A DNA stretch of 64,000 nt from Methanobrevibacter smithii ATCC 35061 (GTDB lineage: Archaea > Methanobacteriota > Methanobacteria > Methanobacteriales > Methanobacteriaceae), in assembly GCF_000016525.1 (NCBI RefSeq), contig NC_009515.1, positions 708,501 to 772,500 on the forward strand, read 5' to 3'. Below are positions 37,096-40,510 of this stretch, one piece after another. A program made the position numbers and the translations under genes. The notes beneath the pieces were generated by a model. It searched no databases and was not told the DNA's origin. It saw nothing but the letters and a program-made list of their open reading frames with translations. Each line of letters begins with the position of its first letter. Position 1 is the first letter of the stretch.

Positions 37096-40000
37096 TTAGA
37101 ATGGTAAAGATGTATAATAACTCTTAAAAGTAAATGTATTAATATTCCAATTCTTTATTACACCTAATGAGTTTCTAGAACTTACTGGATCAGCAACTAC
37201 CCATGTATCACCAATTAATACCTGAGCCCATACATGACCAATTGTACCACTTGAAAAAGTACAGCTTCCATGAACATATCTTGCTGGAAGATCTGCTGCT
37301 CTAAATAATGCTATAACCAAATGAGCCTGGTCACAGCAGTTACCTCTTTTATCAGTTAAAGTTTTTTTAGCACCACGACTAGTATCATAATAACTAGCAT
37401 AAGCTATATTATCAATAACATAATCAAGTATTGCACTAGCTTTTTGTGTTGGTGTTGATAGTCCCGCAGTTAATCTCTGAGCTAAAGCAACAATTGTAGG
37501 GTCATTAACTTGACAATTAGCAGTAGGCTGCAAATATGTGTTAATATTAGCCAATTCACTTTCAGTAGCTTTTACATTGACCCTATTGATTACAAATTGA
37601 GAAGATTCAGAATCTATTGACTTAATAGTAACATAAGCAGGCAGCTGTTGATTATTACCATAAAATGCAACAACACGAGCAAATGCATATACCAAACCGT
37701 CAAAAGTTATAGTTCCTACATTAGAGGGTACTGATCCTGGAGCTTTTCCATTAGCATTTACATAATCTATAATAGATTGTGCAACACTAATATAATCTGC
37801 CAGATTACCTAAATTACCGCACTTATTGTAGTTATCAGGATTAGCAGCATCTTTAGAATCCAAATCGCTGAAATCACCATTATTTATATTTATAGTTGCT
37901 ATAGCTGCAAGATATAAGAATTGTGCTAAAGTATAACTTTCACCATTTATTAAAACGGAATCTGGCAATTTGCCCTCTGATTCAATAAATGATTTTACAA
38001 CTTTAGATGCATCAATTATATTTGCAATTGAGATAGTGCCAGATACATGAATATATGACTGTCCGCTGTTTGAGTAATTACCGCCAATTGTAGGATAATA
38101 ATAATAAGCTATCGGATAGTCTCCTTTTCCTAAAGAATCAACAGTTATTGTAGCTATACCCTCAGCATTAGTAATTGCATTTTTAGTAATGCCCTCATAA
38201 TAGAACTTAATAGATGCTCCACTAATTGGATTGCCTTTAGCATCGGTTAATTTAACTGAAAAAGTTCCATTAGTTCCTGCATTTATGTTAATATCCTCTG
38301 CAATGATTATGGTTCCATTAACCAAAATCATATTTGATCCGGAACCCTGACAAAATGTATCATTAATTGCATATGAAATATCATAATAACCTACATTAAG
38401 ATGAATATTTAATTTAGCAACACCTGACTGATCAGTATATTTAGTATAAGTAATTCCAGAGACTGTAAATAGAACAGCAATGCCACTAACAGGTTTCTTA
38501 TCTTTATCAGTAACTGTGACTTCAAAAGCAGAACCGTCATTTGGCAACATTACTAAATCTTTTCCTTCAATATTTAAAGTTTGTTTAGCAACGACCACAT
38601 TGTTTGATCCATTATTATAATCTAAAGAGCCTTTATTGGAATAATAATATGAAACTAAATAAGTTCCAGGATGCAATCTAATATTTATACTTGCTACACC
38701 ATTGGAATCTGTTGTACGATTATAAGCAATACCATTAATCACGAAAGTAATAATCTTATTAGCTAAAGGTTTACCATATAAATCAGTTAATTTAACTTTA
38801 AATTCAGAACCATCATTATAAACCATGGTTAAATCATTACCTGTCAAAATAGTAGTTGAATTTACAACATGCAAGATACTGCTTGAACTGGAAGAACAAT
38901 AACCCTCAACTCCATCAAAACCATAAGTTATATTATAGTCACCATTTTTCAAACCAGAAATAGTGATGGTAGCATTACCATTTTTATCAGTAGTTGCAGT
39001 TACCTGTTTATTATCATATCTGAAGTAAACAGTTTTATTCCCAATCGGATTTCCTTTCACATCAACTAATGTTACAGTATAATTACTATTAATACTATCC
39101 ATAATAACATATGCATCTTTACCAATTATAGTGGTATTTGAACTACTAACATTAATTCTATTAGATACCTCAAGACCATTATAACTACTTGTAATAATAT
39201 AGTTATTTGGATAAAGTCTAATACCTAACTTTGCAATACCATTTTCATCAGTAATCTTATCATAGAATACACCATTAACATTAAACCTAACAGCAGCATT
39301 TGCTAAAGGTTTACCTTGACCATCAAGAACAGTAATGGCAAATGCAGTACCGTCCCTATAATACATATTAATATCTTTATTATCTATTAATGTAGTTAAT
39401 ACACTAATATTATAACCCTTAGCTTCACCATTAGGATGATAAGCAGTCAATATATAATTACCAGGATAAAGTGAAATAGTTAAATTTGCAGTACCTTTAT
39501 CATTTGTTCTTTTTTCATAGATAACACCATTAATATTAAACCTAACAGTTTCATTAATTAATGGATTACCCATACCATCATAAAAAGTTGCATAATATTG
39601 AGTACCATTCCTGAAGTATTTAATTATATCACTACTATTAATAGTAGATAAAACAGTGATATTATAACCCTTAGCTTCACCATTAGGATGATAAGCAGTC
39701 AATATATACTTATCAGGATATAAAGCAATATTTAATTTAGCTATACCACTACCATTAGTATTGCGAGTATAGAAAACACCATTAATATTGAATCTAACTT
39801 CTGCATTAACTAATGGGTTTCCATTTCCATCAACAAATTTTGCATAATATTGAGTACCGTTTTTATAGAATTTCACAACATCATTTGCAGATATTGTAGA
39901 CAATACTTCAACTAAATTTGTAACTGAAGAACTTCCATACAATGAAGAACCTGCATAACTTGCTGTAATCTTATATTTTCCAACAACCAAGTTAATATTC

Positions 40001-40467
40001 ATAGATGCAACACCGTCACTACCAGTAGTACGATTATAAAGTTTACCATTTATTAAAAATGATACAGTTTGATTAGATAATGCTTTACCAGTAATATCAG
40101 TTAATTTTACATCATAAGTAGTGCCATTTTTAAAATACAAAGTTGTATCATTACCACTTAAAACAGTGTTTGAAACAGAACTTTGAGGTTCAGAAATAAC
40201 ATCATTGTTTGAAATCTGTTGTGATCCTATAACATTATTATTCTCATAATTAGATTTGATTACTCCGCTGCCGGAATATTCACCATTAAAATTATAAGAA
40301 TAATTGTCTGAGATAGATCCATTACTAGAAACTTCTAAATTTTGATAAGATAATTGATTATCATCTTGTATCAAGTTTGAATTTTCGATATCAGAAACAT
40401 TATTTAAATCCGCTGCACATACAGACCCTAACATTAGGAAGAATGCACATATAATTGAAATGAACAA
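37096..40467 (-). CDS. Secreted Ig-repeat protein with pseudomurein-binding repeats and C71/transglutaminase-like domain
   Basis: 1123 aa surface protein. A hydrophobic signal segment (ISIICAFFLMLGSVCAAD) is followed by an Asn/Ser-rich stretch. About eight Ig-like repeats of 80-90 residues (about 95-830) share a pattern of NGT..Y, PL.N..V.F.INGV and a Gly-Tyr end. Two pseudomurein-binding repeats follow (GKLPDSVLINGESYTLAQFL and a copy near AYVTIKSID). The C-terminal domain has Cys in RGNCCDQAH (1044/1045), His in IGHVWAQV (1078) and Asp in VADPVSSRNS (1093), the triad layout of PeiW/PeiP-type pseudomurein endoisopeptidases. It may remodel or anchor to the cell wall. The listed TTG start lies 27 bases after a good Shine-Dalgarno; see findings. 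Confidence 0.85.
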   Translation of the reverse strand: MFISIICAFFLMLGSVCAADLNNVSDIENSNLIQDDNQLSYQNLEVSSNGSISDNYSYNFNGEYSGSGVIKSNYENNNVIGSQQISNNDVISEPQSSVSNTVLSGNDTTLYFKNGTTYDVKLTDITGKALSNQTVSFLINGKLYNRTTGSDGVASMNINLVVGKYKITASYAGSSLYGSSSVTNLVEVLSTISANDVVKFYKNGTQYYAKFVDGNGNPLVNAEVRFNINGVFYTRNTNGSGIAKLNIALYPDKYILTAYHPNGEAKGYNITVLSTINSSDIIKYFRNGTQYYATFYDGMGNPLINETVRFNINGVIYEKRTNDKGTANLTISLYPGNYILTAYHPNGEAKGYNISVLTTLIDNKDINMYYRDGTAFAITVLDGQGKPLANAAVRFNVNGVFYDKITDENGIAKLGIRLYPNNYIITSSYNGLEVSNRINVSSSNTTIIGKDAYVIMDSINSNYTVTLVDVKGNPIGNKTVYFRYDNKQVTATTDKNGNATITISGLKNGDYNITYGFDGVEGYCSSSSSSILHVVNSTTILTGNDLTMVYNDGSEFKVKLTDLYGKPLANKIITFVINGIAYNRTTDSNGVASINIRLHPGTYLVSYYYSNKGSLDYNNGSNNVVVAKQTLNIEGKDLVMLPNDGSAFEVTVTDKDKKPVSGIAVLFTVSGITYTKYTDQSGVAKLNIHLNVGYYDISYAINDTFCQGSGSNMILVNGTIIIAEDININAGTNGTFSVKLTDAKGNPISGASIKFYYEGITKNAITNAEGIATITVDSLGKGDYPIAYYYYPTIGGNYSNSGQSYIHVSGTISIANIIDASKVVKSFIESEGKLPDSVLINGESYTLAQFLYLAAIATININNGDFSDLDSKDAANPDNYNKCGNLGNLADYISVAQSIIDYVNANGKAPGSVPSNVGTITFDGLVYAFARVVAFYGNNQQLPAYVTIKSIDSESSQFVINRVNVKATESELANINTYLQPTANCQVNDPTIVALAQRLTAGLSTPTQKASAILDYVIDNIAYASYYDTSRGAKKTLTDKRGNCCDQAHLVIALFRAADLPARYVHGSCTFSSGTIGHVWAQVLIGDTWVVADPVSSRNSLGVIKNWNINTFTFKSYYTSLPF
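39407..39708. repeat. Near-recent tandem duplication inside the surface-protein gene
   Basis: Fifty bases are identical at 39407-39456 and 39659-39708, exactly 252 bases (84 codons) apart, one Ig-like repeat unit. They encode the shared segment YILTAYHPNGEAKGYNI. Identity at DNA level points to a recent unit duplication or gene conversion. Confidence 0.85.
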
Positions 40468-40510
40468 TGCTTTATTTATCTTTGAAATTTTTCCACCTCT
40501 TAGTTCTCAT

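Follow-up and report, generated by a model that had tools for sequence, protein, structure and literature searches.

What does a large surface protein of a methanogen do with a catalytic domain behind a row of Ig-like repeats? The protein is encoded on the minus strand of a window of Methanobrevibacter smithii ATCC 35061 DNA (the whole stretch analysed, 64,000 nucleotides). It may merely stick to cells, or it may cut, or make, the peptide cross-links of pseudomurein.

The gene, its start and its conserved residues

The features of the locus, in window coordinates, are as follows.

37096..40488, minus strand: whole gene, which probably starts at ATT 40488, while the listed ORF starts at TTG 40467
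40494..40499, minus strand: Shine-Dalgarno-like GAGGTG, read from the sequence
40411..40488, minus strand: signal peptide or N-terminal membrane helix, ISKINKALFISIICAFFLMLGSVCA-AD, seen in the translation by eye
38053..40170, minus strand: array of about eight Big_1 Ig-like repeats, residues ~100-805 (Pfam Big_1, E=9.8e-52, 8 stretches)
37948..38043, minus strand: pseudomurein-binding repeat (PMBR) 1, residues 809-840 (PF09373, 28.6 bits)
37624..37716, minus strand: PMBR 2, residues 918-948 (PF09373, 32.6 bits)
37186..37488, minus strand: Transglut_core catalytic domain, residues 994-1094 (PF01841, E=1.5e-24)
37336..37338, minus strand: catalytic Cys1044, the first Cys of NCCD (70/70 relatives)
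37234..37236, minus strand: catalytic His1078, in GHVW (70/70 relatives)
37189..37191, minus strand: catalytic Asp1093 (70/70 relatives)
37099..37185, minus strand: family-specific C-terminal extension SSRNSLGVIKNWN...LPF, the protein ending on Phe (conservation in 70 relatives)

In the ORF list, the frame at 37096-40467 (minus strand) has 1123 codons counted from the TTG. The true start is probably not this codon but the ATT at 40488, which lies seven codons upstream of the TTG and 5 nt after the GAGGTG sequence. The frame is open upstream of the TTG, where the residues KISKINKAL make up the missing part of a normal signal peptide. The 5′ region with the ATT and the GAGGTG shows 100% identity between the gene and its orthologue in a sister species (genome G037); the two proteins are 86% identical, and both flanks are syntenic. 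Automatic annotation would place the start at the TTG, inside the signal peptide. The neighbouring genes, identified by reading only, encode a CoaD-like adenylyltransferase, a 4Fe-4S protein, a radical SAM protein, and an aminotransferase, and their order is kept in G037. No wall-related function was seen by eye among them.

The earlier note had described about eight Ig-like repeats and two PMBRs in the ORF 37096-40467, and the Pfam search found the same: eight stretches of Big_1 and two PF09373 repeats, both above the cut-off. Its numbering of C1044, C1045, H1078, and D1093 is also correct. The Cys-His-Asp order of Transglut_core is present as C1044, H1078, and D1093 in the alignment with the bacterial structure 3ISR, where Cys1044 aligns with the Cys of GVCRD. 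C1044 is taken as the nucleophile because position 1045 is usually Val in the 70 related domains. Each triad residue is invariant in these relatives, which is not due to chance; thus, catalysis is under selection. The C-terminal extension is nearly as constant, with N1099 in 69/70, G1102 in 68/70, W1107 in 68/70, and the terminal Phe in 60/70. Nearly all relatives stop exactly at a Phe (LPF or ISF) right behind the transglutaminase-type (TG) domain, at 37099-37110 in the window.

Is the protein an adhesin, or an enzyme, that is aimed elsewhere? It could act on bacterial murein or on host proteins, or it could only bind. The gut habitat would suit such a role, and an enrichment of adhesin-like proteins has been described for vesicles (PMC12134236). 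However, the selection on the triad speaks for catalysis, the same family is found across the order, small genomes of thermophile size included, and PMBRs target pseudomurein, not murein. I regard this explanation as improbable.

Transglut_core or Peptidase_C71

The catalytic domain had been called C71-like, after the endoisopeptidases PeiW and PeiP. The kinship part of this description holds, while the family membership does not. The domain scores 86.7-91.4 bits for Transglut_core (PF01841; curated cut-off 23 bits). Peptidase_C71 (PF12386; curated cut-off 22 bits) gave no match at E<=1 in the Pfam search. PeiP and PeiW show the reverse, with 296-319 bits for PF12386 and no PF01841 match. With profiles built for the two families, the M. 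smithii domain reaches 183 bits for its own and 7.1 bits for the one seeded with PeiP, PeiW, and MSTV1. These three score 27-28 bits against the TG profile, compared with 42-61 bits for six transglutaminases of bacterial or bacterial-like type. A tree built from 51 domains unites all 11 C71 rows in a single clade (100/99) and places the M. smithii domain with the archaeal TG rows. The C71 branch is long (1.47 changes per column), and a sister position of the TG domain to C71 is not rejected (p-AU 0.57, in an AU test that rejects nothing).

The likeness to PeiW and PeiP is nevertheless real, if distant, with a profile-profile E of 3.4e-6 and 21% identity across 98 columns. N1043 before the nucleophile is present in 33/33 archaeal TG and 11/11 C71 domains, and G1077 before the His is present in 32/33 and 11/11, respectively; both are absent from the six bacterial transglutaminases. 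The residue after the nucleophile separates the two types, being V or C in all 33 TG-type domains and Thr in all 11 C71 domains. The M. smithii protein has Cys there, so that its motif is NCCD rather than the NCTD of C71. From these comparisons, the archaeal TG type and C71 are distant kin within one superfamily. This kinship has been noted in the literature (PMC10318531), and also in Makarova 1999 as cited by a later paper.

Could the protein still be a true C71 endoisopeptidase of the PeiW/PeiP kind? The triad order and the NCxD...GH signature are common to both, and some TG relatives weakly reach the C71 cut-off (E about 1e-5 to 1e-8). Nevertheless, the missing PF12386 match, the 7 versus 183 bits, the position outside the 100/99 clade, and the Cys in place of Thr after the nucleophile make this very improbable indeed.

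The comparison with the Pei enzymes by structure prediction, which the earlier note had proposed, gave a divided answer. The AF2 model of residues 815-1123 (pLDDT 83.5) has full-length PeiP (8Z4F) as its top PDB match (E=1.4e-10), followed by 3ISR; its low TM-score against PeiP was attributed to the orientation of the predicted domains. In contrast, the catalytic domain alone (AF2 model, pTM 0.81) has the transglutaminase fold and is nearest to 3ISR (TM 0.68), followed by TglA and TgpA (TM 0.60), and by PeiP 8Z4F at TM 0.48-0.49. Since PeiP, 3ISR, TgpA, and transglutaminase 2 all match, the fold cannot separate a hydrolase from a ligase.

Cutting or tying the wall

The evidence that leans towards cutting comes from viral copies of the TG domain and from its fusions with a glycosyl-hydrolase-like (GH) domain. 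Their positions are listed below.

MH674343.1 33520-34422 (L130:5437-6339): Drs3 gp35 (AXN53416.1), 300 aa
L150:4428-5309, L151:4416-5306, L131:3299-4366, and L057:1100-4339: C-terminal TG domains of tail-module proteins in methanogen viruses or probable methanogen viruses
G000:C1:204964-209475 (L148:1465-5976), minus strand: M. smithii paralogue, 1503 aa, with Ig-like repeats, a DUF4015 putative glycosyl hydrolase, PMBRs, and the same TG domain
L152 (G151:C1:1029827-1030291): TG-family protein of genome G151, glycosyl-hydrolase-like + 5 PMBR + TG
G000:C1:1730723-1730956 (L010:1081-1899): only C71 protein of the M. smithii genome, 272 aa, without a PMBR match

Drs3 is a lytic virus of Methanobacterium formicicum. 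Its gp35 combines PMBR with the same TG type (39.5% identity, E=3e-20). No other gene of the Drs3 genome has a PMBR. The gp35 gene sits just after the tail genes, and its best PHROG bears the name pseudomurein endoisopeptidase. The position fits an endolysin, and gp35 is presumed to be one, of the PMBR and TG type and not of the C71 type. No further copies of gp35 were found in the scan of viral contigs. Related TG domains also end tail-module proteins near Baseplate_J in two IMG/VR contigs and the methanogen virus vir080; in a third IMG/VR contig, such a domain ends a tail-like protein. These tail copies have diverged, with about 38% identity. The tail-module proteins may possibly serve as tail lysins.

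The M. smithii genome has exactly two Transglut_core proteins, the second being the paralogue at 204964-209475, a candidate bifunctional wall enzyme judging from its domains. A Cys-rich insert (NYCPNCGYYG...CAYCDCDYCG) lies between the PMBRs of this paralogue. In G151 (1,243,342 bases), the sole TG-family member joins a DUF4015/GH18-like domain to 5 PMBRs and the TG domain. Such GH-PMBR-TG fusions were found in at least about 45 Methanobacteriales genomes among the matches listed, counted by hand from shared contig and frame length across the match lists. A glycan-cutting domain beside a peptide-bridge enzyme is the usual plan of bacterial autolysins. Thus, the joining of a GH-like domain to PMBR and TG follows a plan typical of autolysins.

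Because of Drs3 gp35, the viral tail domains, and the fusions, the reading that I favour is a wall-bound isopeptidase acting to remodel pseudomurein cross-links, and I give it about an even chance. The resemblance to the presumed lysis enzyme of a virus suggests that the protein cuts peptide cross-links rather than merely sticks to cells. The protein would be secreted or membrane-anchored, with the Ig array as a stalk and the two PMBRs holding the tip to pseudomurein. Cys1044, activated by His1078 and Asp1093, would attack the isopeptide bond that a Lys forms within the peptide bridges, and the resulting acyl-enzyme would be resolved mainly by water. Such an enzyme may act as an autolysin-like isopeptidase in growth, division, or turnover. 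The substrate, hydrolysis over transpeptidation, the localisation, and the physiological role are what I infer.

Some observations count against cutting. The catalytic domain alone is nearer to 3ISR than to PeiP or PeiW in sequence as well as in fold, and a virus could recruit an enzyme of ligase fold and alter its chemistry. MTH719 is reported to need three PMBR motifs for binding (PMC3124540), whereas two were detected in the M. smithii protein. PeiR has two PMBRs and lyses cells.

Is the protein instead a transglutaminase that cross-links pseudomurein? The acyl-enzyme formed with the donor peptide would then react with a Lys amine on a neighbouring peptide, yielding a gamma-Glu-epsilon-Lys cross-link. 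This is the main rival. Genomes of pseudomurein archaea are without transpeptidases resembling penicillin-binding proteins. Exported transglutaminases have been put forward as the likeliest enzymes for cross-linking (Leahy 2010, PMC2812497; OG0000044, PMC11915815). The fold, the triad, and the bond chemistry all fit. Transglut_core is near-universal in Methanobacteriales (112/114 genomes) and the family is single-copy in G151, as expected of an essential step. In contrast, Drs3 presumably uses the same module as its lysin, related domains occur in viral tails, the module is fused to a GH-like domain, and the number of Transglut_core matches varies from 1 to 18 per genome with varied architectures. 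I consider cross-linking rather unlikely on balance, although the Drs3, tail, and fusion evidence would be compatible with transpeptidation too.

A different, sortase-like role would make the protein a self-tying adhesin, its TG domain coupling adhesins, or itself, to wall peptides via isopeptide bonds. An Ig stalk is typical of adhesin-like proteins, with which the group has been classed (PMC11532034); a TG fold can make isopeptides, and the PMBRs would place it beside the wall. However, members without a stalk exist, such as Drs3 gp35 with its 300 aa and the GH-fused forms, and there seems little chance that this explanation is right.

Returning to the isopeptidase, the earlier suggestion that the protein may cut or remodel pseudomurein is plausible and somewhat strengthened by the homologue in endolysin position, the viral tails, and the fusions, while the published proposal for such proteins is cross-linking (PMC11915815). 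The specific TG type was found in 111/115 genomes of the phylum sample, and PMBR in 134/139 genomes of the family. C71 is less even (82/114 genomes at E<=0.001, many of them weak cross-matches to TG proteins). The C71 gene of M. smithii adjoins a gene with collagen-like GPxG repeats. Its protein agrees in frame length, profile span, and score with the Pei of Methanobrevibacter smithii tailed virus 1. The gene at 1730723 appears to match the Pei gene of this virus, which was recorded from ATCC 35061.

A tentative history, possible but short of probable, is as follows. PMBR and TG proteins would be resident autolysins, and an ancient GH-PMBR-TG ancestor would have cut glycan and peptide bridges. 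The Ig-stalked forms would be derived. Viruses would have captured the module at least once, as an endolysin in Drs3 and in tails, and C71 would be a further diverged branch.

In the literature surveyed, no characterised pseudomurein cross-linking enzyme and no chromosomal (non-viral) autolysin was found. The TG family, which nearly all wall-bearing methanogens of the order possess, is among the few obvious candidates for either, and comparison with Drs3 offers a direct way to test autolysin against cross-linker. A resident wall-cutting enzyme, if true, would help in preparing methanogen protoplasts and in controlling methane producers.

Comparison with known systems

The view that such proteins are usually annotated only as adhesin-like is outdated, as a TG-type group of adhesin-like proteins (Group III) has been described from M. 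smithii and Methanosphaera stadtmanae (PMC11532034). The M. smithii protein has the same architecture without difference: an N-terminal helix, Ig-like repeats, PMBR, and a C-terminal TG domain, with no beta-helix domain. Since the two Transglut_core proteins of the genome equal the number in the published table, it is very likely one of them. For Group III, that study considers adhesion or the tethering of vesicles, without a catalytic function. Thus, the architecture is already catalogued, and what is new is the evidence leaning towards cutting. The OG0000044 proteins (PMC11915815; idea in PMC2812497), compared by description, are likewise exported TG proteins of pseudomurein archaea. Their authors propose bond formation, whereas the evidence from the M. 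smithii protein leans to cleavage.

PeiW and PeiP (C71, PF12386; PDB 8JX4, 8Z4F) likewise have PMBR and a C-terminal Cys-His-Asp enzyme of transglutaminase/papain-like fold. They share NCxD...GH, with NCTD in C71 and NC[VC]D in the M. smithii family. C71 is a small phage lysin, whereas the M. smithii protein has its own C-terminal extension ending in Phe, an Ig stalk, and a signal peptide. Drs3 gp35 shares the NCQVNDP motif and the C-terminal LPF, but its 300 aa include neither a signal peptide nor an Ig stalk. The Cytophaga hutchinsonii protein 3ISR and bacterial proteins of the TgpA type have the same Transglut_core fold and triad, and among solved structures the catalytic domain of 3ISR is the closest (TM 0.68, 30% identity). 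No PMBR is known from these bacterial proteins. In contrast to the M. smithii protein, the bacterial transglutaminase rows carry V or D, not N, in front of the Cys, and they have neither the GH motif nor such a C-terminal extension.
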